This document shows positions 1 to 57,542 of a stretch of 64,000 nt of DNA, piece by piece (the stretch's first letter is position 1; every line of letters begins with the position of its first letter). The DNA is taken from positions 23,727,262-23,791,261 of the forward strand of contig NC_092642.1 of the NCBI RefSeq assembly GCF_039555335.1, read 5' to 3'. Source of the DNA: Amphiura filiformis. Taxonomy: Eukaryota > Echinodermata > Ophiuroidea > Amphilepidida > Amphiuridae. Position numbers and translations under genes: made by a program. The notes under the pieces were generated by a model. The model saw only the letters and a program-made list of their open reading frames with translations. It was not told where the DNA came from and searched no databases.

Positions 1-39
1 AATAGGCTTTGAAGAAGCTGAGTGCAAATTCCCCTTCAG

Positions 40-99
40 GTAGTGGTGCAACAGACCGGTATCGTCTCTTGCTATCAGATGGCGTCCATAGCAACTCGG
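40..99 (+). CDS. RPA70N exon a
   Basis: Phase 1 to phase 1 exon after acceptor ccccttcag and before donor GTAGGT. It encodes SGATDRYRLLLSDGVHSNS, which aligns with human RPA1 around residues 36-54 (GNSPPRYRLLMSDG). The two arginines corresponding to R41 and R43 of the human basic cleft are present. Confidence 0.8.
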
Positions 100-3000
100 G
101 TAGGTATTGCGCCATCTTACTATACTGCGCCAATAAAGTATCCTTACACTTAGAAAAATAATCATAATTTCAAAACTGAACAATATTGGGGTACATTTGT
201 TTTTTTATAGAAGCACTATGACTATCTTATCCTGCACATTATGACACCACATTGAATCCAATGTGACCTCAAGAAGTAAAGTTACAAGCAATTGAATAGA
301 TGAAGGTCCGGTTTTAAAGTGACAAACTGGCCATATGCAAGGCGCAAAAAGATTCCAACAAGTGAAACAAAGAGACAACACAGTTTCTTCAATGAAGCAT
401 TATTTAAAGCAGTTTTTATTTCAGTTTTTGCTTAGACTGTACTTTTCATAATTTTCATTTTATTTGTCAGTTCTTTTGTTTCAGTTTTCTTTTGTTCCTT
501 TTGTTTAAATTAAAGGCAAATGCATAAATTAGCCATTCACCACTCTCAAACCAGATGTCTAGTCTGTGGAGTTTTGAATCTAGGCCAGTTTGTCACTTTT
601 AAAACTGGATCTTCGTCTAATCAAATGGTTTTAACTTTGCTTCTTGAAGTCACATTGGATTCAATGTGGTGTCATAATGTGCAGGATTAGATAGTGCATC
701 TATTAAGGTCATGCGGGTATGGGGTATAGGAAAAGGTGGCGGTGTTACATTTTTTTTATTTTTTCCCAAACATTTTTTCTCAAGAATGGATAGGTGTACT
801 GAACTGGTTTTGGAGTGTAAGGATACTTTATTAGCGCAGTATATAATTCACTTTGTTGTATGTATGCATGTTAATGGCTCTGTACACTTTCATCAGTTTT
901 GATCCAAATATTGCCAAATTCATATGGGAGATTGAGAAATAATACGAGGAGTATTATAAACTACAACTTTCTGTTTACTGCCCTCCATAGGCCTACTTCT
1001 AAAAGGCTAATGGCAGAAATTTTATCAGCCAAGAAAAACATAGCACAGCAATGGCATATATTGTAACGGAACCCCCAGTAGGCACCTCAGTAGGCCTACT
1101 ATTTTTAATATTGAAAACCATCATTTAAACTTCGGCAGCACTAATCGTATTTTTATCATATTTTATAATCTTTTCATTTCAATCTTTATTTCATTTGCTT
1201 AGGTATCGCGTGCTTGCTTTGCAGGCGCCAAGCGACGTGCATAATCGCTGCGTCCCAAATAGTGCTTAGCGCGATATAGAAAAGAAATGCCGTTGGTGCA
1301 TCTTGGAGCGGCTGAGTTGCGGCCCAGGCTTTGTACCGGGTGGGCGTGTTTTTCATGTCTTGCAACTCTGCCGTTGGTGCATCTTAGAGCAGCTGAGTTG
1401 CGGCCCAGGCTTTGTACCGGTGGGCGTGTTTTTCATGTCTTGCAACTTCGCACTTCGGCACTCGGACATTCTGATAGATTCGCTGATCCTTTTAGGATCA
1501 GCTACGTGAAATGTTGTAATAATTCGTAATGATTACGTATTTAATATAATATCTGACTAGAAATGTGCTTTTAATTTACTTATAATTTTGTATACTTTTG
1601 GATCACGGAGACTCAGTAAGCGGATTAATTCCGAGTGAGTTCTCGCTTTAAAGGGCGTGATCAGGTTTTTGGCTTTTCTATTTTTAACTTCAGTCAGATA
1701 AATAAAATACGCATCGTCGATCAAACATAAATCATTAATTTCTTTAGTTAATTCATCTCATTAATTGTCACGATTTTCTAATCAATACGTCGGCCTTTTA
1801 ATAAATAAATAATATAATAAATGTATTTGAGAGATCGGCGATAGAGTCCGATACTCTAATTTTCGCATCAATTTGAGCGTGGGAATTTACAGCGATCAGC
1901 TGTTCATTTGTAAACAAACCCACGATGATTTTATAAGTGAAGCTTTTATGCCGATGCACTCGTGACTTTTACAGGATGAAGTGACTGGTTTTAGTGATTA
2001 AATAATGTCGTTATTTTGCTGATAATTTCAGTAATGAGATTGGAATTGTAAACTTGATACGTGAATATTGAATATATTGTTGTGCATTGTGAAGCTTACA
2101 GTTTATGCTGGGAAACCAGTACAATATAATATTGATAATTTTATATGTTGTCATGAGTCACTTTTATTGATCTCATTTCTTTAATTAAGTTACTTAAATT
2201 AATTAATTCACAATCCGTGGCAAATCACAATCAATCTTACAACCATTTCATAATTAACGACGACCAGGTATTTATGCTATTCATGATCCTGACATTTAGG
2301 CCTATAATTCACATCGATCCTTTGGGACTTTCACGCTACCATATTTAGTCCATATTTATATTTGTAGGCCAAGGCACATCCGTTTCAATATTCACACATG
2401 AATTGAAGTTTTACCCAGTGTACACAAGGTGGTTTTTTTTCGGGGGTGGGGGGTCACTTCTGGACCGAAACCGAAAAACCTTCAAAATTCCCCTTCTGCC
2501 ACAAATAACATGGCAGAGTGATGAAATGTGCACCACAGGCTAGTTACCGCAAACGTTCGCCTAATGGTGCACCTGGGCTCCTTTCTTTGCCTTGGGGTAA
2601 TTTTCATGTGTTAAAATAGAGAGCTCCCTCCTCTGAAATCCATCTAGAATTAAAGTTCCGTGCCTGTATTTGTTGGTGGGAATTTTATGGGAGGGCACTT
2701 TTAGGGTGTGTGTAAATTCCCACAAATGTCAAGGAAGCCCATAGCCCCATTAGGCGAACATTTACGGTAGTTTATTATTCAACAAAGCTCACATGTACTT
2801 TGGAAATATTTGGGATTTGAATTTTAAAATCAAAAGTATGTTTTGACAATTTTGGAATGTTCAATTGTTCATGAATTAATGAATCAATCCCTTCCATTAG
2901 CCTTTTAGAAGTATGGAGGGCGCAAATAGAAAGGGCATACAATACTACATTTTTAACAATGTTGATATCGAAAACCAAGCTTATTTTACTTGTGCACTTC

Positions 3001-6000
3001 GCAATAATTAGCGATGGAATTTGTAGATCAACTGAATGGTTCTTGTCAGCAGTGTTGCATTATCCGCTTGCATTACTTGATTTTTGTTTAGTATACTTCA
3101 CTTTTTACATGGTATAGTGTATGGCATAAAATTGCTACACATTTCCAAAATTGTGTGGCAAAGTGATCAAAATTATGCGTAGCATTTGCTCCATGATACG
3201 GCTATAATAGGCAACGCTGGTGGCGTGCAGGTTCGACCTCTTTCGAGGTTTCGAGCAAAAAATGGGATGAATTTGCCACATGTAAGTATCAAATTTGGCC
3301 CAGAAATAATCATCGGAAAAATGAAAGTTATACCTCATCTTAAAGGTAAAGGCTTATATATTACTACTTTCCCATCGTTATATTTATAGTCTTAATCAGA
3401 TTTTTACTGGAAGCCTATGACTTGGGTGCCCGTTTTCACCATTCGCTATTTTATTTTTGGACCGTTGATATCATACCATAATCATACTTCACACCGATTT
3501 CTCTACCAAATTATAGGCATGTGTCAAACATTCCACAATTACATTCTTGCTATCAAATTTTGGTATATGGACCTCCAAAATATAATTTACAAGTTCTAGA
3601 AAACGTAAATTTTCAGTGCTCTACACTTGGCCAAAAGCTTATTCATTAAAATTCTTCTATTTTCATTGTTGACCCATATTTTAAACTAGCTGCAATATAT
3701 CACTGAATCCTACGTAAGGGATCTGGAATGAGCGTTTCGACAGTATTTTTTATGGAACATGAGAGCACCTCAGACGTATCGAATTGCATTCTGAATACGA
3801 AGCATGTCTTTCTGATATCAAATAATTTTCATTTTTTGAAAATCACGATATAATACAAATTTTTTGTTATATAACAGTCCTCGAAGTAAATTTTATAAAT
3901 CTAATGATATATTCTTAAAGTGTATGTAGCTGGGAGGAAAAGCCGACGATCAATTGAAAATTTTGACCTTTCATATTGAAGATATGGATTTTTTCCCAAA
4001 AAGACCTAATTTTTTGTGTGTTTTGGGAAAAAAATCCATATCTTCAATACGAAAGGTCAAAATTTTCAATTGATCGTCAGCTTTTCATCCCACCTACATA
4101 CACGTTAAGTATAAATCATCAGATTGATAAAGTTTACTTTGAGTACTGTTAAATATAAAAAATATCAATTTTTAATGATTTGCCATAAAATGTGTACTAG
4201 TATTACATTGCAAATTTCAAAAAATCAAAATTATTTGATGACATTCTTCGTATTCAGAATGCAATTCGATATGTCTGATGTGCTCTAATGTCCCACAATA
4301 AATACTGTCCAAACGTTCATACCCCTTGCCTTAAAGGGGGATAACCCTATTGGTTTTGGATATGGATTGTCTTTAAAATTACATAATAATATCAAATATC
4401 GCCCCCTTTATGCTGCTTTGTGAAAAAACGAGAGCATTTCAGCGTAAATGTGAATAAATAGCCAAATTTGCAATCCAATACCTTGGTATACGTGAATTGC
4501 ATTCTGGGCAGGCAAGCAACAACAACAATTCCCGACGAATGCTGACATGCTGTACAATGCCCGGCCCGTATTGAACAGAAAATATTTGTGTTTTTTTCAG
4601 TACCGTTTCAGAAAAAATGGAAACAAAATATATTTCCCTTGCAATATGTACATTTCAAATGAATATTAAAAAGTTTGGGTTAAAAATGGAGAGGAAAAAA
4701 AACTTCTGATACCGGGTTTTGGACCGGGTACCTCGCGGGTAACAGCATAATGCGCTAACCAATTGAGCTAAATCGCCCACGATGTCCATTGTGGAATTTA
4801 ATTATTAAATACGCCACACCGTCTCCTCAGCAGTTAGTGTGGTTCGCTTTTTTCACAGAATGTGTATAACGTGAAACCAAAGTAGCTGTTGAGGAGACTG
4901 TTGATTCGCAATTAATTCCCTCCCCAGAAATCCGAAGTAATTTTTTGTATTTACAAACTGGTAGCCTGTAAAAACCGCTGTGTTTCATGATTTCTCCGAA
5001 ATACATCGACTTGGAGCGTCAAATTTCAGGATAGTAATGAGAAAAATAGTATCTATTATGTGATACCAAAACCTCATCAACAATGAAAAAAAATCGGGGA
5101 TGATGCTGTCGATCGGGTTACGGACCTTTAAGCCATAGGTACAAAGTTTGTATGTCTAAGCTACAGCAGTGATGAAAAATAGTGACATTTCTTGCCACCA
5201 TTCTGCCAAATCACACACTTTTTCAAAAGCTTCTGTTTCAATCATTTTTGTGATTCAAGTACCTGTTTTACAATTATGTGTTGAATCAGTTCTAAGTTTA
5301 CCATCTCAATTGTACTCACCATTTATATCCCAAGCTAAATGTATACATCCTTTATATTATATCCAAATTCAGGTTCAAGAACAGGCAAAATAGACCAAAT
5401 CTCAAATGTCTCCAGTCATATAAAAAGCTGAAGCAGGACTGGTGTTATATTTATTGTCTGAATATATTGATATTTATGGATTTTCTCTGCCTTGTGATTA
5501 ATACATATTATCAATGAGAAGGGATTTTTATGCCCTCACCTAGCAACGGTAAACAACATAAATGTAGGGCAAAAATGAATACACTAAATCATTTTTAAAA
5601 GCACTTTTAGGCACAAATTTGGCAATTTGAATATGGTCATTTTCACAGTAAAGGGTGTAACTTTTGATTTTTAGGGTCAACATTTCAAACCACTTAAATA
5701 TGTTTCTGTTTACTGAAATCATGCATAGAAGCAACTTAAATTTCAGTAAAATAATGTTTCAAGGCTTAAACCTTTTGATTTCTAATAACAAATTTGACAT
5801 TTCCATAACATTTTGGTTAAAATCTAAGAAAAAAATGTATTTTACATAAGCTCAGAAAATTATGACATGAAAGCTGGAATACATGTGAAATCCCATTCCA
5901 AAGTAAGTCAACAGATATAAGTTACATTTTAGACCATGTTTTGCTATGTTTGTAATTGCAGTTTTGAAAATTTTTAACATCAAGTGTCATTTACAATGGA

Positions 6001-9000
6001 AATTTCCTAACCTTAAACATATTTTTCAAGTTTTAATTGGGTTCCTAAAATAATTTGAATGTCTAACTTCATGTACAAATACTACTTAATGACAGGATCC
6101 TCCCAGCCAAGTTTCACAGGAATTGGAGTTATTTTTTAGAATTGGCAATTCAAGCGATTTGTGTTTCGGAGGCTTCAGTTAACAACACAGGTGATCATAA
6201 AAGTAAAATATTTGGCTAAATACTACAAGTTGACATGAAAAAATAGGTAAAAAATATCACAATTACCAATTTTCATGCTTTGCTTCTAAGTATTGAATTT
6301 CAGTTGTGACAAAAATTAAATTATCACAGCAAGTCATTTTTTTGTTTCGGAGGCTTCATGTTAAAACAATGGTTAAACATTGCAGAAGTAGTTTTTTTGA
6401 AAACAACACTGTTGGGATCATCTCTAAGCTGTTATTTTCTTGTGTGTATTGAATCAATGATTCTATGCGGCAGATATTGTAGATTTATCACATGTTAATT
6501 TTTTCACCCATTTGTTAAGTGACAGGCTTTTTTGGGTATCAGTATATTTTTCAAACATTAACCATAATATCAACAATTTTTTTAATTTATGACATTCTGC
6601 ACATATCAAGTAACAATTACAATGCAGATATCAGTATGAAACACACCAATTTAGATATGCATAGATAAGATGATAATTAATCTTATTGTTGTTTCGGAGG
6701 CTTCATTTGTTTCGGAGGCTTCAATTGTTAACGGAAAGTTTGTATTGGGTCCCATTTTCAAATGGTGATATATATCTCCACGATTTAAAAACAAGTGACT
6801 TGAGGATCGACTTTGCTACATTTTGATAAATAGATTGGATGAGCTCTTTTATTTATATTTGCCCAAGCTTGCTGAACAGTTTTTTTCGGAGGCTTCAAAA
6901 ATGTTAACGGAAAATCGGCTCTTTGAAGTCAAGATTTTATAAAAATTTTAAAAGCTTGCAAATCGACTAATTTTTGTTACCCATTTCAAGTTAAGATATC
7001 AACTGTTCAGTCTGCCGCCTGGACAACCAATTCTTTAGAAATGCTTAGTCGCGCTAAAAGTCGATCGATACATGTAAAAATCAGCACAATTCAGAGATAC
7101 ACCTTTTTGCTATGAAATTAATTTTCTCGGTCAAATATAAAGCAATATTTTTTTTTCTTCAGTAATGTCAGTTAAAAACTTGGTGCTTGGATATACATTT
7201 TTTTATATATCCTGGTGTTAAAATTAAGCATCAAATTGTGTCTTTTAGTGTGATATTTTTGATTTTTATAGGCCTTGAATTAAGCCTGCAGCTTTTTTAC
7301 GGAATTCATGTTTTAGCGTCTCAAACTAACATAGTTTGCTAAAGAAAGATATTTCCCACCTCTGTAAAGCACATCGTGTGGGTCTATATGTTATAGTTTT
7401 GTCAGAATTTCCGTTTTGTTTTACCCTTTTTCCATTCAGTCTCCGAAAATGTCAAACTAAGTAAAAGTAGGCAATGGTGAGTACTTTATCTCGAGAGCAA
7501 CCAGCAGAAATAGTCGATATTTCCTTTGTTGTTATCCAGGTCAATTTTTCATTGAAAGCAAATTGCCCGACCAGCGATTAAATCCCCAATTGGGTGTTCT
7601 GGTTAAACATGATCAGTAGGGCGCTATAGGTCTGGGAATTTCTTTGCTATATTGAAGTTCTGGCAACACTATAGCCATGCCGGTATTCCTATTAAACCCA
7701 GGGATATCGATCCACAATGCTAGTACTAGCCTTTAGATTTCACGTGTTGATTTAGAAATTTTTTCAGCTCACAGTGAAAGATGGTGAAATCAAAACGGAA
7801 ATTCTGACAAAACTATGATATATAGCTCACGGTGATGTGCTTTAGAAAGTTGGGGAAAATCCTTCATTAGCGAACTATATTACTTTGAAAAGCTAAAAGG
7901 TTGATCCAAGAAAAAGCTCATGGGCCGAGCTGAAGCCTATAAAAATCGAATATCTTACACTAAATGACTGAATTTCAGGCCTAAGTTTAACACCAGGATT
8001 TAAAAAAAAAATCAGTATCAAGCATTATAGTTTTTCCAGCCATTTACTGAAAAAATGAAAATTATTGCTTTTCATTTGGCGGAGAAAAAAAAATTTTACA
8101 CTGAAAAGGTGTAACTCAAAATTTTGCTCATTTCAACACCAATTTCGATCGTTTGTATTGCCTCATTAAATGACTGAGTGAGCCTTGCAGAACAAAAGAA
8201 TCGGTTGTGCAGGTACCTGACTGTGTTATGAATCAAGAAGAAGTGAAGAAATAACCAAGAATTATGAACCAAAGCTATACCCACAAAGTTTGTTAACAAT
8301 TGTTAACAGAAAATGAAGCCTCCGAAACGACAAATAGCGAAGTCAGGTTCTCAAAAATACAGGGCTGTTCAAAATTAAATCTAATGTGGCAGTGCTTACT
8401 GAACATATGACCGTACTTTCAGGATAAGAAAGTTATCCATGAACTGAAGAAAACACAGGGTTTTACAAAAATGTTAATGTTTTTTATAGTTTTTCAAAAT
8501 GGCAATATTAAGTACATTTAAGCCTGCTAAAACTAAACACAGTAACTCCCAAAGATGATTATGCTACCCAAGGTAGCTGCTAACTAGATGACTTATGTGG
8601 CCAAAAATCATGGAATTCTGTGGCTTTATTTGAACACTACGGATCAAAATGTTAAAAATCCAAAGTTACACCCTTTACTGTGAAAATTACCATATCTGAA
8701 GTGTTGAATACATTGAAAGTCCCGGCACTCGCACCCACACAAACCGATATAAAGTTGATATTGTAATTTAGTGATTTGACATTGGTCTACCTCTCTGTAG
8801 CTATGCTGGCTGTCCAGTTAAACAAGCTTATCGACGACAGCACAATGGAGTTATTCAGTGTAATCCAGTTGGATAGATTTGTGTGTAACCCTCTGCCAGA
8901 TAACAGGTTAGTAAACACAATTCAAGCTCAAATTTTTGTGTTGTGGGGATGTTAAATACATTTAGGAAATTAAAATCAGCTGTTTTTTTTGTGAAAAAGA

Positions 9001-12000
9001 AAAAAAAACCAGAACCACTTGAAAGGTCTGTTTTCCTGTAGAACAGGCTGTTTCTGTCACCAAAAGGCTATATGTAAACTATTTAACCCTAACACCGAAC
9101 CCTGCTTTTTGATATCGGAAGTCAAAGAAGATCCGAAAAAGTCAAGAAGAAGAAGAATTTTTGACTTGGCACCCCTGGGATTCGAACCTTTGACCCCCCG
9201 CATGCCAACCACACGATCGCGGACCAGTAGCTGCACAGGTTATTGCTGCCCGGCCAGCAATTCCGTGCGCATAAAACACTTAGGGTGATTGCGTCATTGC
9301 AGACCCTGTGTCGTGGTATTTTGTGGTATTCACTGGTGTTAGGGTTAATGTAAGCAAAAATCCTACACACCGGTGCTTAACCAAATAATGCACTTCGAAA
9401 TTGAATGAAATACTGATCCAGTGTGGATCACAGCTACTACTGACAGAAAAAACAACCAGATTGTTGAACAACCGCCATGTTTAAGAAATTTCTATAAGAG
9501 AAATACTAAGAGTGTTAATTTTGTGAATCATCTTGCTTTCAGGTTGGTCATGATCCTGTAGACAATGGTAGAGTTGAAAGAATGAGTACCTCATGTCCCA
9601 GAAACATAATTTAAATAAGACCTATACTACATGATGATATCAAAAACTCAATTTTCAAAATTAGTGACTTAGTCTGGTTTTGTGTGAGCGGGTCACATAT
9701 GTACAAACTGATCAAAAGCAAACAGATTGTTCAATTGTTAAACATCCTCCATTAAAGAAAATTTTCTGAAATATTTAAAATGTGAATCCTTGCTTTCAGG
9801 CGTGTCATGATTGTGTTAGAAGTTAGCATTCTACAGCCAGGTAGTCACGTACGCAACAAAATTGGCAACCCGGTATCTCTAGCAGCAAGCGCATTGTTGA
9901 CAAATCAACAACAAATAGGTGGGTATATACACATCAGTAGGGATTAAACTTTAAGGTAGGCGAGTGTGATCGCAAACCTAAACCCATTCCTAAACTCCTT
10001 ACTGAGTGCAATTTAATAGCACACCTGACAGCCCACTTTAACATTTCCAGAAGTGTGATTTGTAGCATGTGTTAATGTTTCAAAACTCAACCCCTGCATC
10101 AGTGTCATACATGGAGGCTCAACTGAAGTTACATTGCATCGCTTGGTGATTGCGATGTCGCTTTTGCATTTATGCTAATCACATCGATACAGTGGCATAG
10201 CCAGGATTTTTCAGGGGGTGAAGGGGCAATGCAACTTGAACTTTCAAGGGGGACAAATTTCAGTGGTCAAAAATGTGCTACAAAGGGCATACAAATTTTT
10301 AATAACAAGGGTCACCAGCATCCAACAGGGGGGCAGGACTTCTCACAGTGAGGGTAGCTGCCTCCCTCCCCCGGGCTCCCTCCCCCTGCTACACCACTCC
10401 GACCATAGCGATTGCAGATGACAATCAAAATATTTAAAATGGAACAAAATACATTAATACAAAATACATATGGCAATATAATATATACTTGGTCCGCCTT
10501 ATAATTTGCGAAGACTTTGAGATTTGCGTAATGTGTGACTAGTGTAGGCTTATGAATTTATGCAAGCTTAAGTTGGGACTTTATTGATGCACAGTAATTT
10601 TTGTCAATTACAAGTAGAGGTACCACTGAATTACTGGGATAAATACTTTATAAAATGGTAGGAATGTGGTAACCAGCATGTTTTATAATTCTTTTGTGCT
10701 AGGAGGACCTTCTGTCGTTGCACAGAGACCAGCTTGGATGCAGCAATCAAGAGGTTTTCTAGGTAAGATTTTTGCCTTTGTAAAACTCATTCCATGAAAA
10801 AAAGGGGGTCAAAATTTGATGAAAATTGTCACAAATGGGCTAAAAAGTACAAAAGGGGCATAAAAATCTTAAATAACCAGGGTCGCCAGCATCCTGCAAG
10901 GGGAAAAGACTTCTCACATTGGGGTTGCTGCCTCTCTCTTCCCCCTCCCTGGCTACACCACTGCGGCGAGAGTGATTGCAGACGGCGATCAAAATATTAA
11001 AAGAGACAAAATACATAGAAGTGCATAGACATTGAAATATTCACATATTTTAAATATACTTTGTCCGCCTATAATTTGCGAAGACTTTGCGATTTGCGTA
11101 ATGTGTGACTAGTGTAGGCTTATGGATTTATGCAAGCTTAAGTTGGGTCTTTATTGATGCACAGCAATGTCAATTACAACTAGAGGTACCACTGAATTAC
11201 TGGGATAAACACTTTATAAATGGTAGAAATGTGGTAACTGGCATGTTTTTATAATTCTTTGTGTTCAATTTCTAGGAGGACCTTCTGTCGTTGCACCAGT
11301 TGGAATGCAGCAATCAAGTGGTTTTCTGGGTAAGATTTCTGCATTTGTAATACTTGGCCCATGAAAAAAGGGGGTCAAAATTTGATGAAAATGATCAAAG
11401 ATATGCTAAAAAGTACAAAAGGGGCATAAAAATCTACATAACCAGGGTCACCAGCATCCTGCAAGGGGGAGAGACTTCTCACATTGGGGTTGCTGCCTCT
11501 CTTCCCCCCTCCCTGGCTACACCACTGCGGCGATAGTGATTGCGAACGACAATCAAAATACAAAAGTGGAACAAAATACATGAATACAAAATATGTATAG
11601 AAAGGCATAGACATTGAAATAGTCACATGCCTTAAATATACTTGGTTCGCCTTATAATTTGCAAAGACTTTGATTTGCATAATGCATGACTGGTGTACAT
11701 GTGATTTATGCAAGCTCTTAAGTTGGGACTTTATTGATGCACAGTAATTTTTGTCAATTACAAGTATAGGTAACGCTGAGTTTTGGCACCGGGATAAACA
11801 CTTTATAAATGGTAGAAATGTGGTAACTGGCATGTTTTGTAATTCTTTGTGTTCATTTTCTAGGAGGACCTTCTGTCGTTGCACAGAGACCAGCTGGAAT
11901 GCAGCAATCAAGGGGTAAGATTTCTGCATTTGTAAAACCAGAGAAGATGTAATAAAGAGGAGGGTCAACAGAATTATATCCTTGAGATAATCCCGTAGGT

Positions 12001-15000: not shown

Positions 15001-18000
15001 ACTGATATACCAAATGACCCAAAATGAGACCCATGGTCATGTCGCAAAGTACATCCCGGTATGGTCATTTGTGACTGGACACCGCGAATCAGCCGTAAAG
15101 TCGGCCCCGGTCAATTTGGTTTGATTTCGTGTGTAGAAAATATATATCATAGGCTTTAAAATGGTATATCATTTGACTTCAAACGATATCCAGAAGCGGG
15201 GTTATGGTTTGTTGAACTCTATTCCTTCAACAAAATTGTATCTTTTATCGGTTCTACATGTGTCTCTATTTCCACATTTCTGGTAATAAATATCAAACAG
15301 TCATAATTGGCGGTCATTTCAAATCATCCCCAAGTCAACGAGGTTCAGAAATATCCTCTCATTGTTCATTGTTGATTATACATACCTAGACAAAGTACAA
15401 TGCTTTGTTATCTACCACTTGAACAGGATTTAGCAAACAAAGACAAGAAATATTCTATACATTGTAGAAATAGGTAGAAGCTTATTATCCTCTTCAGCAA
15501 TAGTATTATTGATTTAAACAGTGTTTGATGAGATACTTGTCGCACTGAATTGTGATAGCTATGAATACGACCTTCACACATATTTTATACTGTAACTCGG
15601 AATACAATTTCCCGAGTTTACGGCGCATTCGTAGTGTCCACTCACATTTGTACTGAGTACCCCCCCTGAAATTTTCACTGTTTTTTTAGAACCTACAAAC
15701 AAATTACTATATAAAAGTATATTATTACAATTAAACATGAAATTACAAATGGAAACATAACATGCATAGGCAGATATACCAGAGAAAAAACTCAGAAAAA
15801 ACCTGCCTGTGCATCCGGAGTTTTTCAGGTATGTCCTGAGTTTTTTCTCTGGTATATCTGCCTATGCATGTTATGTTTCCATTAGTAATTTCAAGTTTAA
15901 TTGTGCTACTGTATATTGATATATTAAGAATAACGATTAAGCATCATTAATATCATATGATCTCATGCACTAGTTTGTAATGTTTAAATGTTTCCATGTT
16001 CCAGTGTATGATGCGTAAGCCTCTTCCCTTGTTTGTATAATATTATTGTTGACATGATTGAACTTGTGCTTTCTTTTCAGCTCATAAAGTGGCTTCAGGT
16101 GGGCATATGTCACAGAAGAGTAGCCTCCTACAAGACATGTCTCAACAGCTTACGTGCAGCATATGCCTGGATCACTACACAATTCCTAAAACTGTCACCC
16201 CATGCTTACATACATTTTGCCAACAATGCCTCCAAGAAACTATAGACACTACTGCTACATCTAGTGGGCCTATAGGAAAGTTTCCATGCCCAAAATGTCG
16301 AGGAAATATTGAGTTTGATTGTCCAGATTTACCAACGAAGAAAAACGCAGCAGAAAAACAATTTCAAACAAATTTTGACATTCAAAGTCAACTAGAAATT
16401 ATCAAAAGCAAGATCACAAGTGGATGCTCCAAACACGAAGGTGAAATGCTGATATTTTTCTGCCGGTCTTGTGATCAACTCATCTGCTCTTTGTGTCTTG
16501 GGGAGAAGCATCGGTACTGCAAGTTTATTACTGTTAAAGAAGAAGCGGAGTGTATTCGTGCTGAAGTTGAAAGTGAGCACAAGAAAGTTGATAAAGAAGA
16601 GCTGTTGTCACAACATAGAAGATATTTAGCAGAACTTGAGAACAGTTATAAAAATGCTGATACCATAATTGCATGCCTTGATGCTTACAAAGCTGATATA
16701 AAAGATTTCATGTGTGAAGTAAAGCAGAAGAAACAAACCTCAGAAATAAATATCAAGGGCGTCCAAGAGTATCCAGACAAGTATGCAAGACTAATTCAAC
16801 TTGTGAGCGGAACAGATGACTTGAAACTTTTACTAGAAAGAGAGACTGTGTCAAATTTACGTCAAGAACTGAGGAGGGCCAATGATTATGCGCCTACCAC
16901 TCCAACGCTACCTTCTGAGGATCGCTTAGCTGAAACGCTTGAGTGCTTATCAGGCAGTGTGAAAAAAATGATACAAAAACTAGAGCTTAAAAAGGTAAAA
17001 GAACTTTTTAAATATTTTTAAAAGATGCTTGTCTTTGCCCACTTTCAGCAATTCATTAAGAGACTGGGTTGGTAATCATGTTTTCTCCCAACCACATAAT
17101 TATTATTATTATTAATCAGCACTTATATGGCGCTCTAAACAATAGCTCAGCGCCTCGCAGTGTCTCACATATGTGACGTGTCTTGTCAAAATCAGACACT
17201 TTTGGGCAGGTTATAAATGTTGAGGTTTTTACATATATCTTAATATAAAGATATTTTGCTCCATAACACCATTTTCCCTAATGAAATCGGACATTCCTAA
17301 GCGAAGATAATGAGTTCGTAAGTTATGGTATTATAACTGCCGTCAGTAGTAAAGGACATATTTTGAGGGTATTATGGCAGTGGGGATGGGCACCCATGGC
17401 ATTATGTCATGGGTTAATTTGAGGGCTGGCTGCCCCATCCTAAAGGTCCACTTCAAGTTCCACCTTTTGCTATAAAAAGGAAAATAAAAGGTCCACATTT
17501 TTTGGTGATAAGGCCTTCAATAAGTCCAAAAACGACAATTTTCAGGGGTTTAGACAAGTGCACTTTTTGGATGTCAAGCACCCCCACCCCCAAATCAATC
17601 CTGCGTACAGGCCTTGTTATCTTCTGTTATGAATGTTCATAAGTGCATTAAAGTTTTGTGTATAGAAATAATTGTGTTGATGTCTTAAAAGACAAAAAAA
17701 ACTTGTCCAAGCTGTACCAGCTTGCTTGGACTAATTGTGGCTGTTTTAGTGGTGCCCTGAAAAGTGTGAAATTTAAAAGTTGTAAATTCACAAATATTTG
17801 CTTGATTTTCAGGTTGCGGAACTGAAGAAACAGAGTAAGGCAGCTGCAGACAAGAAACCAAAGGGTAAGTTCATAAAACCCAATAAAAATTTGTTTAGAA
17901 AAAGGGGTTGTGGGACTTGCTGTAAAAAATACATCTCCAGACCTAAAACTTCCTCTTTTCAGCTGATTTCCTCTTTTTTTATTCCTGAAATTTATGCGCT

Positions 18001-21000
18001 TTCTTTTATTTTCAGCCCAATTTGAGCCATTTCACCCCAATTTACGGGGCTTTTTTTAAAGCATTTTTTTGAGCATTTTCAGGTTTTTTCCTCTTTTTTT
18101 TTTATAAAGACCCTGTTTCAGGTCTGCATCTCTGTGCATTAAAGTGTAGGGTACCATCGTGTATTGGTCATGTAATCTCATTTTGAACCAGTTTAGCATT
18201 AAAATGGCACATTTTCATGTGCTTCGTGTGCATTTGTCTCAGTAAGGTCATCCTGGTAAGGTCAGTGAAATTGTGCCCACTTTGGAAAATTTGCCCGGTA
18301 CACAGCATGCAAATTATAAGTTTTGTTACGTAACAGCATTTAATTATGCCTTGGGTGACGCCATATTTGTCATATGAAATTTTGGTCACTGGAAAAGTTT
18401 GGGAAGTCTTGAATTGTCCAATAGAGCTTGGAACTTGTAATTAACTAAAAGAAAAAAGGAAGGAAGGTTTAATTTCAAACTCTAATGTTGACCCGCAGGT
18501 CAAATTGCTAGAATTTTACATTAAACACACCTAAACAGACACAATGCAATTTGCAGGCAGCAGCTTAATCAGCACCAATATTGCAACATTGAAATAAACA
18601 ACTATACAAACATCCAATCCAACCCAACCCCATCCCCTAGTAGGCAATGAGGATAAAGTGCCTTGCCCAAGGACACAACACGTTAGCACGAAGGGCTCGA
18701 ACTCGCAACCTATGGATTATGAGTTGGCGCCTTATCCACTCGACCACACGTGCTCCCAACTGTGACAATTGGTATTGAGATTTTGAGATAATTGTATGAT
18801 CAAGGGAACAACCCAAAAGTTTGATGACATCCTATAAATGAAAGTGCTTTTGTTAGGCGGCTGACCCCCTCCCCTCCCTCTAAAGTAAGTTTAAAATGTT
18901 GAGAATTTCCCGGGGGTACTCAGTACAAATGACCATACGGGACGTGCATAAACATGGGTAGCATTTTCAGCCTTCTGGTATATCAATGACCCTTTTTCAA
19001 AGCCTATTTTGGTATATGAATGGGTCCTTTTTTCAAAATTTTCTCAATTTTTTCGGAAAACAGCCCAATTTTTCCTTAATCTAGCCAAAATTTTCAAAAT
19101 TTTCCCAAAATTTCCCCAAAATTTGTAAAAACTAAGACAATTTTGGGTAAATTCGGCCGAAAATTTTGACTTTTGATATATCAATGGGTCCAAATTTCTT
19201 GAAAAATTGGTATATTTATGGGTCTACTTCCAAAATCTCAGCGGCACGTCCCTACCAAAACCAAACTTGAGTACCCCCCCCGGTAGAATTTCAACCCAAA
19301 AGATCACATTTGACCGATATTTTACAAAATATCATACTTTTTGGCCCCCTTCACATACCCCACTCCCCCCCCAACGAAAGGACTTATACGTGTATAGGAC
19401 ATCATCAAACTTTTGGTTTGTTCCCTAAGATATCTGTTTGTTATTTATGAGATCTACAATGTACGTACGTGTGTGTAGTCCTAAATAACATACTGACATA
19501 ATGTGTTTGTTTGTGCAGATGATCAAGGTTTTGATTTGATTTATTGATATGATAATCCAGGCAAGCATAGGCGTAAAAAGCAGAAAAGAGACGAATCAGT
19601 TGCCAAGTCATGGGTCTTATTGGACATCAAGCCACGGGATGACAAGACCGATCTTGGCGCACTAGAGCTTGTGAGAACTATCGTAATGGATGGTCTAGTA
19701 TGGAGAAATTGTAAGTACACTGACACCCAATGGACTGAAGCTTTTATTCATCTATTTTGTCTGCTTAGAGCGGTGACATATTACTATGTTGCCAATCAAT
19801 ATTCATGAACTGTGGATTTTGTTCATTTGAAACAATTTCTATGTAAAATGATGGTCTTGTACTCACATTGTAGTGATATTTCAGTTTCACCACTTCACTA
19901 GTGGTTTCATCAGACTGGCAACTCATCACATCAGGGTGTTTCCTCTTATGGGCACCAGGTGAGCCGTCAGAGGGTGTGATAAGTTGGTCAGTGAGAAATT
20001 CAAAGGCATGGTTGTAGTCCCCTATATATAGAGGGCTTTTCTGAGCGAGTCTCCCGTTTGTTTAAAAACAGGATTTTCTACTGCCATGGAACCACACCGT
20101 ACTAAAAACAAACTTCTCCCTCAACAAAAAGTGGAGGCCGTTTACGAGATCCCCTGTGGTGACTGCTCCAGTTCGTACATTGGTGAAACTGGCTGTCCTT
20201 TTGGCATTCAACTTGCATATATAGACAAGACATCGCATATCATGTGAAAAGTCCCACGGCAGTATATACCATGCGAAGTGTGGAGGATGTTTTTGTAAGC
20301 ACCATCTTGCATTTTTAAATGCAGTGAAAATGTTAAAAAATTAAAATTGTTTATAAATTGCTTAAAAGTGAAGGATAAGTCATTCAAATTGTCATTTGGT
20401 ATTTTTGAAATGAAAAATTTGGCAAAATTAAAGAAAACAGCAGTATTGATGAAGTTGAAGCCCCATTCGAATACATGTAGCTAATTTAGATACTGTCAGT
20501 ATCTAAATTACAGTTTCATATAAATTCCTTATTTTTGTCTTAAATACACGGCTTTCGGCTGTACCGCTAGCAGGCTATGTTTACATATTTATGGAAATGA
20601 CAAAGGTACCAAATTCTGAATTTTGATGATTTCTCGATCGTCCGATGAGCAAATCACTGAATGGGCCTTTAAGTAAGATGTATTATCATGTTGCATTGTT
20701 ACACATTCTTTCTTCACAGCCAATCTTATCCCAATCGGTGATGGAATGAAGAAGTTGCAAATTCAATGTGAGGTGGAAGATGACAAGGTGAGTATGTACA
20801 TTGTAATATTGTCAATGGCATGGGGCATTTATCACTACTGGACTAGCTTCATAAAAAGAAAGTCCAGTAGATCTACTGGACTAGCTTCATAAAAAGTAAG
20901 TCCAGTAGATCTACTGGACTAGCTGTAAGTCCAGTAGATCTACTGGACTAGCTTCATAAAAAGTAAGTCCAGTAGATCTACTGGACTAGCTTCATAAAAA

Positions 21001-21813
21001 GTTAGCCCAGTAGATCAGATTACATCTCAAATACATAAGTTGTTACTATCTGGATAAATGATAATCTAAACAATAATATATTTAAAGCCATATTATAACA
21101 TTTGCTGAGGAAAACACCCTAAAAAATTTTCAAGTCTGGTTTTTACACGATTGTAATGTACTTTAGTCAATAAAGATACTCTGCAAAAATCAAGACTTTA
21201 GTGCTGCAGTTCAACGAAGGAACCGGCATTTTATTATTACGATGGAAATATTAATCGAACACATATACACAGTATATTGTACACGGCGTGCGGGATACAC
21301 ATAATACACATCCAGAGGATCGTACCGTATTGAAACCGCGGGAGTAACTTGCATGGGCACTAGTAGTAAATTCCAATTTTCTATGCTTTACCTCACTTGT
21401 TCGGCTCAAAATTAAAAGGGGACATATCTGACAGTAAAAGCTAACATTTTGTGGAAAATAAATACTAATCTAATTTTACAGAAATGTTATAATATGGCTT
21501 TAAAGCAGCATAATAATTATATCAGACTAACCTCTTTAAATATGCAAATAGGGGCCTACTCGAGTTATTTATTGTGTATCATTTCCTGGGTCATTTAATA
21601 TGTAAGTACTCAATAGAACATTGGATTGTGATTAGATACAAATTTATGTAGGTTCACATAATTGACACTCATGGTGTTCCTATTAATCAATTTGTGTTTT
21701 CTGTGCGGGTTTTGTTTCATTTTTAGGTCAGCACTGACGAACTAAAAAACAGCATCACTGCTTTTGAAGACTTCGTACAGTCTGTAGACATTGTTGCCAT
21801 CGACAAGATGTAA
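40..21813 (+). CDS. Composite gene: RPA70N OB-fold + RING/B-box + eEF1B GEF (5' partial)
   Basis: Gene model built by hand from exons 40-99, 8801-8906, 9800-9918, 10703-10762, 11276-11329, 11864-11914, 16081-16994, 17813-17864, 19561-19710, 20720-20787 and 21727-21813 (stop TAA). All introns are GT..AG and intron phases agree at every junction (1,2,1,1,1,1,0,1,1,0), so the joined coding length gives 573 residues without a stop. Domain order: RPA70N, which in RPA binds checkpoint and repair partners; a Gly/Pro/Gln/Ser-rich linker of repeated exons; RING C3HC4 and B-box, the usual front end of TRIM E3 ubiquitin ligases; coiled coil; then the eEF1B domain that exchanges GDP on eEF1A. The start codon and about 35 residues lie left of the window. 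The domains are well supported. That they form one transcript is inferred from phase and order; neighbouring separate genes or gene remnants remain possible. A candidate AATAAA lies at 23022-23027. Confidence 0.66.
121..843. repeat. Foldback element in RPA70N intron
   Basis: Outer arms TACTGCGCCAATAAAGTATC (from about 123) and the complement ending GATACTTTATTAGCGCAGTA, with inner arms at about 233-330 and 582-690 (GACACCACATTGAATCCAAT and its complement). No transposase frame. Confidence 0.8.
1287..1450 (+). repeat. Two-copy tandem repeat, about 78 bp unit
   Basis: Two nearly identical direct copies of a unit beginning GCCGTTGGTGCATCTT and ending TTTTTCATGTCTTGCAACT. The short reading frames across it are repeat artefacts. 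From 1450 to 3710 nothing else was recognised; the DNA is AT-rich intron. Confidence 0.8.
3713..4335. repeat. Long foldback element, family F1 copy 1
   Basis: Arms of about 290 bases meet at a small loop near 4000-4015; for example GATCAATTGAAAATTTTGAC (about 3948) is answered near 4053. Ends carry ATGAGCGTTTCGACAGTATT and its diverged complement. Diverged copies lie at about 37595-38225 and 51236-51978. Confidence 0.85.
4709..4782 (-). repeat. tRNA-like sequence (pseudo-tRNA or SINE head)
   Basis: Reverse strand reads GGCGATTTAGCTCAATTGG then TTAGCGC (box A-like), followed by GGTCCAAAACC (degenerate box B). The anticodon stem (TTATG/CCGCG) and acceptor stem do not pair, so this is not a functional tRNA. 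Confidence 0.5.
5630..8702. mobile_element. 3 kb terminal-inverted-repeat element without recognised ORF
   Basis: Ends are inverted copies: TTTTCACAGTAAAGGGTGTA at about 5639 and its complement ending near 8690. The motif TTTCGGAGGCTTCA recurs on the plus strand at about 6166, 6348, 6692, 6708 and 6884, and once inverted near 8312. No transposase was recognised. The interior has a second, nested palindrome (7070-8130). It sits in the large RPA70N intron and is probably a non-autonomous DNA element. Confidence 0.6.
7070..8130. repeat. Nested long inverted repeat inside the 3 kb element
   Basis: Left arm (about 7070-7430) and right arm (about 7780-8130) are diverged complements. The clearest pair is TTTTGTCAGAATTTCCGTTT (about 7397) against AAACGGAAATTCTGACAAAA (about 7794), and the AAGCACATC/GATGTGCTT pair just outside it. 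Confidence 0.7.
8801..8906 (+). CDS. RPA70N exon b
   Basis: Follows a good pyrimidine tract (ctacctctctgtag) and ends at donor GTTAGT. It starts with two bases that complete the split codon of the previous exon (Ala) and encodes MLAVQLNKLIDDSTMELFS followed by VIQLDRFVCNPLPDN. This matches RPA1 residues about 57-91 (FMLATQLNPL, CQIHRFIVNTLKDGR). The arginine in LDRF corresponds to human R81. Phase 1 in, phase 2 out. Confidence 0.85.
9083..9347 (-). mobile_element. tRNA-promoter repeat with TAACCCTAACACC ends, copy 1
   Basis: Begins TAACCCTAACACC and ends GGTGTTAGGGTTA, a terminal inverted repeat of 13 bases. Inside, on the minus strand, lies a tRNA-like box B, GGTTCGAATCCC. A related copy in the opposite orientation is at 58205-58461. 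It combines SINE-like promoter sequence with MITE-like ends. Confidence 0.65.
9540..9580 (+). pseudogene. Decayed duplicate of RPA70N exon c acceptor
   Basis: TTGCTTTCAG then GTTGGTCATGATCCTGTAG mirrors the true exon at 9800 (TTGCTTTCAG, GCGTGTCATGATTGTGTTAG), and about 90 bases upstream are similar as well. In the exon frame it meets a TAG after six codons. It is a short tandem duplication 258 bases upstream that has lost coding capacity. Confidence 0.55.
9800..9918 (+). CDS. RPA70N exon c and start of linker
   Basis: Acceptor ttgctttcag, donor GTGGGT; phase 2 in, phase 1 out. Encodes RRVMIVLEVSILQPG, then RNKIGNPVSLAASALLTNQQ, matching RPA1 RRVVILMELEVL and VKIGNPV, the last strand of the N-terminal OB-fold. 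The Arg pair equivalent to human R91-R92 is kept. After IGNPV the sequence becomes linker-like. No DBD-A exon of RPA1 was found downstream, so the RPA similarity ends with this domain. Confidence 0.82.
10190..10398 (+). mobile_element. CAGTGGC-type small element (hAT-like MITE remnant)
   Basis: Starts CAGTGGCATAGCCAGG and ends near GCTACACCACT, a common hAT-type end pair. Parts of it were carried along in the linker-exon duplications (10800-10965, 11365-11525). Confidence 0.5.
10703..10762 (+). CDS. Linker exon, copy A
   Basis: 60-base phase 1-1 exon (acceptor tttgtgctag, donor GTAAGA). Encodes GGPSVVAQRPAWMQQSRGFL. First of four near-identical small exons, each within a duplicated block of about 0.58 kb. 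Length is a multiple of three, so adding or removing it keeps the frame. Confidence 0.65.
   Translation, partial: EDLLSLHRDQLGCSNQEVF
11276..11329 (+). CDS. Linker exon, copy B
   Basis: 54-base phase 1-1 exon, acceptor caatttctag, donor GTAAGA. Encodes GGPSVVAPVGMQQSSGFL, a copy of exon A with a two-residue deletion. Confidence 0.65.
11864..11914 (+). CDS. Linker exon, copy C
   Basis: 51-base phase 1-1 exon, acceptor cattttctag, donor GTAAGA. Encodes GGPSVVAQRPAGMQQSR; the final GFL of copy A is missing. It can join directly to the RING exon at 16081 in frame (split codon G|CT, Ala). Confidence 0.65.
11939..12744. mobile_element. 806 bp hAT-like element splitting the linker-exon block
   Basis: Terminal inverted repeats CAGAGAAGATGTAATAAAGA and its complement ending CATCTTCTCTG, flanked by a 7-base direct repeat GTAAAAC. 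A 101-residue open frame inside (12090-12395) resembles nothing I know. It lies just after linker exon C, so it inserted after that copy existed. Confidence 0.75.
12904..13020. repeat. Partial copy of TTAA element with AGCCATATT ends
   Basis: TTAAAGCCATATTGTAACAT followed by TTGCTGAGGA matches the left end of the complete element at 21086-21499. The right end was not found. From 13020 to 13650 no further gene was seen. Confidence 0.5.
13822..14371. repeat. Foldback element inside linker block D
   Basis: Ends TATGAAGAGATTTGTTTCAA and the complement near 14350-14371 (TTGAAACAAAGCTCTTCATA), with a further arm CAAAACCCCTTACATCCAC repeated near 14163. It interrupts the duplicated intron sequence between CAATTACAAGTA and GTAACACTGAG. 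Confidence 0.75.
14466..14518 (+). pseudogene. Linker exon, copy D, frame-breaking
   Basis: Fourth copy of the linker exon with intact acceptor (ttatctag) and donor (GTAAGA), diverged to read GGSMVFRLAGMQQPSGLG. It is 53 bases long and leaves in phase 0. Joined to the RING exon it shifts the frame into one that stops at 16243-16245. It is therefore a decayed exon, skipped in productive transcripts, or a poison exon. Confidence 0.6.
14880..15670. repeat. Diverged GAGTACCCCCCC-type element
   Basis: Contains TTTTTCAAGACCAATTTTGG and TATACC words shared, inverted, with 18909-19283, and ends near CTGAGTACCCCCCC (15652). Partly degraded; the boundaries are uncertain. Confidence 0.4.
15734..15901. 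repeat. Foldback hairpin before the RING exon
   Basis: Nearly perfect arms of about 75 bases (GGAAACATAACATGCATAGG and its complement) around a short loop near 15815. It would form a strong hairpin in the intron RNA upstream of the RING exon acceptor. Confidence 0.85.
16081..16994 (+). CDS. RING finger, B-box and coiled-coil exon (TRIM-like)
   Basis: One long exon of 914 bases; acceptor ttcttttcag, donor GTAAAA, phase 1 in, phase 0 out. About 20 residues in is a complete C3HC4 RING: CSIC, then CLHTFCQQC, then CPKC. About 75 residues later a B-box follows: CSKH, then FFCRSCDQLICSLC and HRYC. The last zinc ligand, usually His, is Cys here. The following 150 residues are charged and helical (coiled coil), ending in LSGSVKKMIQKLELKK, which looks like the leucine-zipper region that precedes the acidic part of eEF1 delta. 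Family knowledge: RING-B-box-coiled-coil proteins are E3 ubiquitin ligases. No SPRY, NHL or filamin domain follows. An internal ATG (HMSQK) could have been the start of an ancestral separate TRIM gene. Confidence 0.9.
17098..17160 (-). repeat. Non-LTR retrotransposon or SINE 3' tail fragment
   Basis: An (ATT)n run adjoining AGCACTTATATGGCGCTCTA and AACAATAGCTCAGCGCCT, typical of L2-like tails that end in a short simple repeat. The rest of the intron (17160-17812) shows nothing recognisable. Confidence 0.4.
17813..17864 (+). CDS. Lysine-rich connector exon (eEF1B-like)
   Basis: 52 bases, acceptor gattttcag, donor GTAAGT; phase 0 in, phase 1 out. Encodes VAELKKQSKAAADKKPK, a Lys/Ala stretch like the segment between the leucine zipper and acidic region of eEF1 delta. 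It bridges the coiled coil and the GEF exons in frame. Confidence 0.7.
18468..18760 (-). mobile_element. tRNA-derived SINE
   Basis: Minus strand has box A TGGTCGAGTGGATAAGGCGC and box B GGTTGCGAGTTCGAGCCC at tRNA spacing. A conserved-looking body contains TGTGTCCTTGGGCAAGGCAC. A SINE of the Ser/Leu tRNA type is likely. Confidence 0.8.
18909..19283. mobile_element. CCCGGGGGTACTC foldback element
   Basis: Starts CCCGGGGGTACTCAGTAC and ends CTTGAGTACCCCCCCCGG. Inner inverted words GGTATATGAATGGGTCC and TTGGTATATTTATGGG occur. Located in the intron before the first GEF exon. Confidence 0.7.
19561..19710 (+). CDS. eEF1B GEF domain, exon 1
   Basis: Encodes KHRRKKQKRDESVAKSWVLL, then DIKPRDDKTDLGALE and DGLVWRN. 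This matches the eEF1B beta/delta signature (AKSSILLDVKPWDDETDM.. DGLVWG). The invariant Trp of WDD is Arg here. Donor GTAAGT, phase 1. The acceptor used in this model is aatccag at 19560, which has a weak pyrimidine tract. A stronger acceptor, gtttgtgcag at 19518, would add DDQGFDLIY and then a TGA at 19545-19547 in the same frame. Confidence 0.8.
20065..20245 (+). mobile_element. Penelope-like element fragment (GIY-YIG region)
   Basis: The frame from 20065 reads FSTAMEPHRTKNKLLPQQ, then VEAVYEIPCGDCSSSYIGET and GCPFG. The VYxIPCxxC..YIGETG signature is that of the GIY-YIG endonuclease of Penelope-like retroelements. The frame is lost after about 60 residues. A dead 3' fragment inside the intron between GEF exons. 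Confidence 0.65.
20316..20670 (+). repeat. Dispersed repeat family R2, copy 1
   Basis: Shares long blocks, in inverse orientation, with about 53150-53490: TTGAAGCCCCATTCGAATAC, ACGGCTTTCGGCTGTACCGC and TTGTCATTTGGTATTTTTGA have complements there. An internal hairpin, TAGATACTGTCAGTATCTA, is present. Confidence 0.75.
20720..20787 (+). CDS. eEF1B GEF domain, exon 2
   Basis: 68 bases, acceptor tcttcacag, donor GTGAGT; phase 1 in, phase 0 out. Encodes NLIPIGDGMKKLQIQCEVED plus DK, matching the core strand [22 protein letters not shown] of eEF1B. Confidence 0.9.
20836..21014 (+). repeat. Intronic minisatellite, about 38 bp unit
   Basis: Four to five copies of a unit containing the palindrome GTCCAGTAGATCTACTGGAC followed by TAGCTTCATAAAAAGTAA. 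One copy is truncated. Lies just after GEF exon 2. Confidence 0.9.
21086..21499. mobile_element. TTAA-flanked MITE, AGCCATATTATAACATTT ends
   Basis: Inverted ends AGCCATATTATAACATTT and AAATGTTATAATATGGCT, flanked on both sides by TTAA, the piggyBac-type target duplication. 414 bases, no ORF. Confidence 0.8.
21727..21813 (+). CDS. eEF1B GEF domain, last exon and stop
   Basis: Acceptor catttttag; encodes VSTDELKNSITAFEDF, VQSVDIVAIDKM and TAA. It matches the eEF1B C-terminus (VGTDMLEEQITAFEDYVQS). In yeast eEF1B alpha the penultimate Lys205 reaches into the Mg-binding site of eEF1A; Lys is penultimate here too, so the exchange function may be intact. Confidence 0.9.
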   Translation, partial: VSTDELKNSITAFEDFVQSVDIVAIDKM

Positions 21814-22933: not shown

Positions 22934-23427
22934 TGAAAACACATTTTGAAAGTTTAGCCAAATCTTCATTATAAAAAGTTGGATCCTGTTCATTTTTCAT
23001 GTACAATCTATCTAAATGAGGAATAAATATGAATCAGGGCCTAATATAGTCACATGGCACTTTCTCACTTTTCGAAACACTGATTTTTCTTCCAAGGGTA
23101 TAGGAGATTTGTATTTACAGGTGTGTACTCATAAAGGACGTCCAAGAGTATCCAGACAAGAATGAGAGACATACATACAAAATGCTAACTAATTCAACTC
23201 ATGACTTCCAAATATTACCAGAAATAACTTGAAAGGTGGCTGTATTCCAGGGTGAATATCATGCTTATGTATGAACTTCCAAAAATAACCAACACTTTAT
23301 TCAGATTTTTGACACCCTAAATGATGTACTTCTTGATGTTTTGTGTTCAAGGTCCTGTCAAACTTTTATGTTTTTGATGTTTTTGACACGTAAATGATGA
23401 ACGTGCTTACAGCAAAATTGTTAAATT

Positions 23428-38701: not shown

Positions 38702-46139
<7,438 letters not shown>

Positions 46140-57310: not shown

Positions 57311-57542
57311 ATGGACTACATGTTGGACTGGGATGATCCACAAGGAGACCAGTTCTCATTTGAAGATAGCGATCGCTTCGAAGAAGATTCTTTATGCTCT
57401 TGGGTGAGTGAAGCAGAAAGCGTCTGCAACAACAATTGGCGAGGATGGAAGAAGAGTTCTTCAGGACCTCCTGTTGCTGGACCATCAGCATCTGTAGCAA
57501 GTTTGGCAGGATCATCTACATCCCAGAATAGTTCTTCTGAAG
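57311..57542 (+). CDS. ZSWIM8: ZSWIM8 first coding exon (5' part)
   Basis: ATG in good context (GACCATGG) starts MDYMLDWDDPQGDQ, then FSFEDSDRFEEDSLCSWVSE, AESVCNNNWRGWKKSSSGP and a Ser/Ala-rich end, closing at donor GTATGT in phase 1. The block FSFEDSDRFEEDSLC..SEAES..NWRGW is the conserved N-terminus of animal ZSWIM8 (EBAX-1 in C. elegans). ZSWIM8 is a substrate receptor of a cullin-RING ubiquitin ligase that drives target-directed microRNA degradation. The SWIM zinc finger and all later exons must lie beyond 64000: I found no second exon in the following 6.4 kb, which is plausible for a long first intron. Confidence 0.88.

Follow-up and report, generated by a model that had tools for sequence, protein, structure and literature searches.

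The window, i.e., the whole 64,000-nucleotide stretch of Amphiura filiformis (A. filiformis) DNA analysed here, carries on its plus strand a series of exons for three kinds of protein domain, namely the N-terminal RPA70N domain of RPA1, a TRIM-type RING/B-box core and the eEF1B exchange domain, which can be joined into one reading frame. These exons, together with their counterparts in a database protein (P0001), are as follows:

6–99 (+): RPA70N exon ALKKLSANSPSGSGATDRYRLLLSDGVHSNS, with an AG acceptor at 4–5
8801–8906 (+): RPA70N exon MLAVQLNKLIDDSTMELFSVIQLDRFVCNPLPDN
9800–9918 (+): end of RPA70N and start of the linker (RVMIVLEVSILQPGS...NQQQI)
10703–10762 (+): linker exon copy 1, present in P0001
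11276–11329 (+): linker exon copy 2, left out of P0001
11864–11914 (+): linker exon copy 3, present in P0001
14466–14518 (+): linker exon copy 4, diverged/worn, absent from P0001
16081–16994 (+): TRIM exon, coding for the RING and B-box and for a likely coiled coil and C-terminal helix
17813–17864 (+): joint exon VAELKKQSKAAADKKPK, from TRIM to the eEF1B part
19561–19710 (+): eEF1B exchange domain, exon 1 of 3
20720–20787 (+): eEF1B exchange domain, exon 2, in which D replaces a conserved aromatic (yeast F163)
21727–21813 (+): eEF1B exchange domain, last exon, with the penultimate lysine (yeast K205) and the stop

Exon structure and predicted protein

Joining the 11 exons that a preliminary description of this DNA had listed gives an open frame of 572 residues whose sole stop is terminal (one of the eight border combinations tried was open), with AG at all 11 acceptors, GT at 10/10 internal donors and agreeing phases at every joint; the order, borders, phases and single frame of that description thus hold. 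The start of its first exon, placed at position 40, does not: bases 6–41 are in-frame coding sequence (ALKKLSANSPSG) that resembles RPA1 at the same place, and with exon 1 taken as 6–99 the joined frame amounts to 584 residues. Leaving out the exon at 11276–11329 yields 566 residues that are identical to the last 566 of P0001 (593 aa), i.e., P0001 consists of 27 residues from beyond the window plus 10 of the 11 exons exactly. Its N-terminus, MSNFLTRGAIKEIADG, completes RPA70N, and the gene start, to judge from this match, is upstream of the window. P0001 being a predicted model, the composite is already predicted in some annotation.

Pfam finds all three of the parts that had been described in one frame, and in that order, as Rep-A_N, RING, B-box and EF1_GNE (E-values of 3e-18, 3e-9, 3e-7 and 4e-23, respectively, far beyond chance), and the solved structures matched are those of RPA70, of TRIM and other RING proteins, and of eEF1D/eEF1B. 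EF1_GNE is the sole C-terminal domain detected in the joined protein, and we know of no described TRIM class that has it as the C-terminal domain. Neither AATAAA nor ATTAAA occurs within 1.2 kb downstream of the stop, the first such word being at 23022. The four similar linker exons (starting at 10703, 11276, 11864 and 14466), together with flanking intron, resemble tandem duplicates. The three better ones (60, 54 and 51 bases) are mutually in phase, and their lengths are multiples of three apart; hence, any of them could be used or skipped with the frame intact. Exon similarity significantly exceeded intron similarity in two of the six linker pairs (p 0.003 and 0.006, as opposed to p 0.14–0.29 for the remaining four).

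Within the TRIM exon, the RING scores above the cut-offs of three Pfam models and has eight zinc ligands in the arrangement C-x2-C ... C-x-H-x2-C-x2-C ... C-x2-C. It is followed by a B-box (PF00643, 31 bits against a cut-off of 24) whose last ligand is C, the usual last ligand being H. A long helix is predicted at residues 342–413 (block pLDDT of 63–78 over 341–410) in what is a low-confidence model, i.e., a mean pLDDT of 56 and a pTM of 0.23 from an alignment of eight sequences, to be taken as a hint on helices only; a TRIM_CC match was found in one relative only (P0020), under the cut-off. The end of the same exon had been described as an eEF1-delta-like zipper, which put the TRIM-to-eEF1 joint within this exon. 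It is TRIM sequence: three of the six TRIM relatives (P0018, P0020 and P0023) align with the window up to 16970–16985, i.e., almost to the exon end, and the three eEF1 proteins tried (P0002, P0004 and P0005) match exons 9–11 only and gave no match to the TRIM exon. The joint therefore lies at or near the intron between 16994 and 17813.

The highest-identity TRIM relative is P0020 of A. filiformis (57% identity over 69% of the query; third among the TRIM-type relatives by E-value), a model that lacks a RING and has a B-box, a weak coiled-coil match and a C-terminal pair of PABP/UBR5-type MLLE domains. Members of this TRIM subfamily may readily acquire domains with a role in translation or in ubiquitin signalling. 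TRIM debris with stops at 23128–23322 (+), which matches the P0020 coiled-coil part at an E of 0.007, marks remains of TRIM duplication at the locus. An inverted repeat at 15704–15927, with arms of 102 bases that are 87% complementary and 20 bases apart, lies some 150 bases upstream of the TRIM exon and is possibly a small mobile element. The next genes along from the composite include that for ribosomal protein S14 (uS11; RPS14) on the minus strand at 38702–46139, with four exons, the first three of which, when joined, match PF00411 (E 1.3e-36). A further coding exon, DYMLDWDDPQGDQFSFEDSDRFEEDSLCSWVSEAESVC..., is found at about 57312–57541 (+); we take it to resemble the N-terminus of ZSWIM8, presumably placing a ZSWIM8-like gene among these neighbours too.

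A second three-part protein in the same animal

A protein search with the RPA70N part as query yielded 11 proteins, i.e., P0001, P0009, the intact A. filiformis RPA1 (P0008, encoded on another contig) and eight other RPA1-type proteins, and a search with the TRIM part returned 46, of which only P0001 and P0009 have all three parts according to the listed Pfam domains. P0009 (598 aa), also from A. filiformis and also a predicted model, has the parts in the order of P0001, joined by a similar linker, and is apparently encoded on the same chromosome as the window gene. The two proteins are 70% identical overall and 64–79% identical in the first two parts; we rejected the possibility that they are alleles because, at 70% identity, they are too different. 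Both contain the linker motif SVVAQRPAGM and the residues AHK[VI]A directly ahead of the TRIM core, and their TRIM-to-eEF1B joints are similar, V[AV]ELKK...[KR]PKGK. Further, the TRIM exon of the window has an ATG at 16107, preceded by 26 open bases; P0009 shows partial conservation of the residues that these encode but lacks a Met at the matching position. Translation of its TRIM part would hence have to begin either in coding sequence further upstream or at a Met further along.

The search with the eEF1B part returned seven proteins, P0009 not among them, and the lack of other composites in that search therefore says little. For species other than A. filiformis, the absence of composites applies to the matches listed in word-based searches. 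Two of the proteins with an eEF1B match, P0002 and P0003 (three member sequences each), carry a nucleoside diphosphate kinase domain (PF00334) in addition to eEF1B, and P0004, a bivalve protein named as a cytochrome P450, combines a P450 with an eEF1 domain in what looks to be a merged model. That is, eEF1B domains are found in other odd joins that are possibly artefacts, and the case for the present gene accordingly rests on P0009 rather than on P0001 by itself. With P0009, the three-part gene looks real as far as predicted models go, and the earlier view of one composite gene as opposed to mere neighbours gains support from it, although the argument then offered, i.e., a joint within an exon, fails.

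Our leading interpretation, for which we see about an even chance, is that the window holds one protein-coding gene, one of two A. filiformis paralogues, encoding a TRIM-type ubiquitin ligase with a captured RPA70N on a flexible linker at its N-terminus and a captured, partly worn eEF1B domain at its C-terminus.

Constraint on the core and on the flanking domains

In the TRIM part, P0001 and P0009 are identical at 225/290 positions. Of the 65 differences, 14.3 would be expected at columns that are invariant in relatives and 3 are found there (p 1e-4), and each copy retains 61/64 such columns (defined as invariant in at least five of six relatives, as P0020 has no RING). Relative-rate tests of the TRIM core did not set the two copies apart against any of the six outgroups (p 0.39–1.0). 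For RPA70N, 95 ungapped columns were compared, residues ~101–118 being left out since P0014 is short; in the latter residues, both P0001 and P0009 diverge further from RPA1. P0001 is identical to P0008 at 90 of these 95 positions, and its five changes are too few to test (hits at invariant columns: one observed, 2.1 expected; p 0.32). For the 18 changes of P0009, the corresponding figures are two observed and 7.4 expected (p 0.006). Judged by these tests, which compare proteins with invariant columns and are weaker than dN/dS, the data show constraint on the TRIM core and on RPA70N in P0009.

Two RPA70N changes are unique to P0001, 15 are unique to P0009 (p 0.002) and one is shared; this asymmetry calls for either unequal constraint or gene conversion with RPA1 as the donor. 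Two separate captures of RPA70N would not fit well with the shared linker. As a separate observation, P0009 has accumulated far more change than P0001 in both the RPA70N and the eEF1B part, although the TRIM cores are even.

The basic binding groove of RPA70N was assessed at 13 positions taken from PMC10479964 (V97 and K16 of that source fall outside our mapping). It equals that of the animal's own RPA1 at 13/13 positions in P0001 and at 12/13 in P0009, the remaining one being an R to K change. Compared to human RPA70N, 8/13 positions are alike in P0001, including R41, R43 and R91, and the five differences (R31K, N29A, I33L, S54N and K88P) are the same five found in the animal's own RPA1. The preliminary description had allowed that independent full-length RPA1/eEF1 genes would count against it if they explained these exons as dead fragments; an intact RPA1 does exist, as P0008, yet the exons are not dead fragments, being open and with their groove kept.

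The eEF1B part of P0001 is identical to human eEF1D at 55/87 positions. Between P0001 and P0009, identity in this part is 29/85, far below that of the TRIM part, and 31/35 invariant eEF1B positions are kept in P0001 as opposed to 20/35 in P0009 (15/35 changed). The lysine aligned to yeast K205, the catalytic residue, and the frame to the domain end are kept in both copies, with three further residues after this lysine in P0009. The aromatic corresponding to yeast F163, which is F or Y in 9/9 references, is lost in both (D in P0001, N in P0009); I165M is common to both, and P0001 also carries W130R and E133K in the KPWDDET motif.

It is possible, and somewhat unlikely in our view, that the gene makes an expressed, largely useless chimera, i.e., that a TRIM gene took up RPA1 and eEF1 exons by shuffling, that only the TRIM core is maintained, and that the flanks are passengers, with the eEF1B part decaying. 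The state of the eEF1B part, without its conserved aromatic in either copy and with the above losses at invariant residues in P0009, agrees with such decay, and the RPA70N of P0001 has too few changes for a test. On the other hand, the RPA70N of P0009 avoids invariant positions and the groove is kept, the K205-aligned lysine and the frame to the domain end persist in both copies of the eEF1B part, and all three parts have been retained in two copies.

One gene or merged neighbours

Alternatively, three adjacent genes could have been duplicated as a block and both blocks then fused by gene predictors, which we consider improbable. Several features point that way: AATAAA/ATTAAA words occur between the parts (though these are common in such A+T-rich DNA), short read-through would meet stops after exons 6 and 7, an ATG is available within the TRIM exon itself (16107), and one other eEF1 match, P0004, looks merged as mentioned above. 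Against this stand the agreement of phases at all joints and the partial conservation between copies of the linker and of the coding stretch before that ATG, at which P0009 has no Met. That is, the joints are kept as protein in both copies, which disfavours the duplication of a block of three neighbours. Nor does the window hold the remainder of an RPA1 gene: tblastn with P0008 at an E of 0.01 matched only the three RPA70N exons. Accordingly, we rejected, for the window, a layout in which the TRIM gene sits inside an RPA1 intron and the other RPA1 exons follow downstream. Pfam likewise finds the RPA1 DNA-binding domains A, B and C missing from both the joined protein and P0009. Finally, stitching of fragments through an assembly or haplotype artefact is most improbable, since nothing specific favours it beyond a genome described as highly rearranged in PMC11310086, and the two copies, at 70% identity and hence not alleles, have the same order of parts.

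A proposed damage-to-translation switch

The preliminary description had proposed a link from damage to eEF1A; in this reading, the protein would sense DNA damage via RPA70N and act by nucleotide exchange on eEF1A. The RPA70N groove, being that of the animal's own RPA1, and the retained K205-aligned lysine speak for such a switch. The other end fits poorly: in yeast, F163 binds a pocket on domain 2 of eEF1A and even an F163A substitution raises the Kd ~6.5-fold (PMC10844748), and the corresponding residue here is D (P0001) or N (P0009); P0001 in addition has W130R and E133K in its KPWDDET motif. Because neither copy has the pocket-filling aromatic, normal exchange activity is doubtful and the proposed link to eEF1A is weakened; a switch of this kind is therefore very unlikely, and a changed binding surface on the eEF1B part is possible judging from its sequence.

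Discussion

Returning to the interpretation that we favour, i.e., one ligase gene with captured domains at both ends, the introns retained within the RPA70N and eEF1B parts lead us to infer that the capture took place at the DNA level, by which exons would have entered a duplicating, immune-type TRIM family. According to PMC11310086, the TRIM-like family of A. filiformis is expanded and takes part broadly in immune responses. In the protein, the TRIM core would dimerise, bringing its RING domains together and thereby activating them, and RPA70N would serve as a bait or docking head on its flexible linker. It might dock the acidic amphipathic motifs of DNA-damage proteins (such RPA70N-binding motifs are named for RAD9, MRE11 and ETAA1 in PMC10479964), or those of invaders that imitate or seek such motifs, and the docked partners would then be ubiquitinated. 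Ubiquitination of RPA70N partners, which the preliminary description had also suggested, is possible. The eEF1B-like tail would act as a second docking surface rather than as a normal exchange factor, and the whole scheme would follow the TRIMCyp pattern.

Provided that it is produced, the protein would be a ubiquitin ligase whose two ends carry RPA's main docking module and a translation-factor domain, respectively. Moreover, the presence of a diverged second copy and an intact RPA1 in one animal would make it a natural test case, both for the retention of captured domains as baits and for the ways in which TRIM families outside vertebrates acquire new targets. It is tempting to extend the model to a class of brittle-star TRIM ligases with integrated baits, in which captured pieces of the replication and translation machineries (RPA70N and eEF1B here; MLLE in P0020) sit on a ligase core and trap invaders that attack those machines, although we regard this broader proposal as speculative and unlikely.

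Among the matches listed in open-licence PMC (i.e., no subscription papers or preprints), no title or abstract opening described an RPA70N-TRIM-eEF1B architecture; as far as we can tell, the parts are known and the combination is new. The Amphiura TRIM-only proteins P0018, P0019 and P0021 and the MLLE-bearing P0020 belong to the same TRIM subfamily (47–57% identical over the matched part) but have neither an RPA70N nor an eEF1B part. RPA1 (P0008) has the same N-terminal RPA70N with the same groove, followed by DNA-binding domains, whereas the composites have RING and B-box in their place. The eEF1B-alpha and eEF1B-delta (eEF1D) proteins have a C-terminal EF1_GNE with the K205-aligned lysine in common with the composite, which differs from them in the missing conserved aromatic, in an eEF1 N-terminal part that Pfam did not find, and in having a TRIM core as carrier.

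A close parallel in design is TRIMCyp (TRIM5-cyclophilin A), since in both cases a TRIM ubiquitin-ligase core has gained a domain of a host protein; in TRIMCyp, the captured cyclophilin is the bait for capsid. The captured cyclophilin is a retrocopy, unlike the captured parts described here, which keep their introns. A rodent TRIMCyp fusion has anti-retroviral activity that is reversed by cyclosporine (PMC6677749), whereas the Amphiura composite, with captured domains at both ends (from RPA1 and eEF1B), is not known to have antiviral activity. Should the proposed integrated-bait class prove true, it would represent an animal parallel of the integrated-decoy receptors of plants and a two-bait extension of TRIMCyp.
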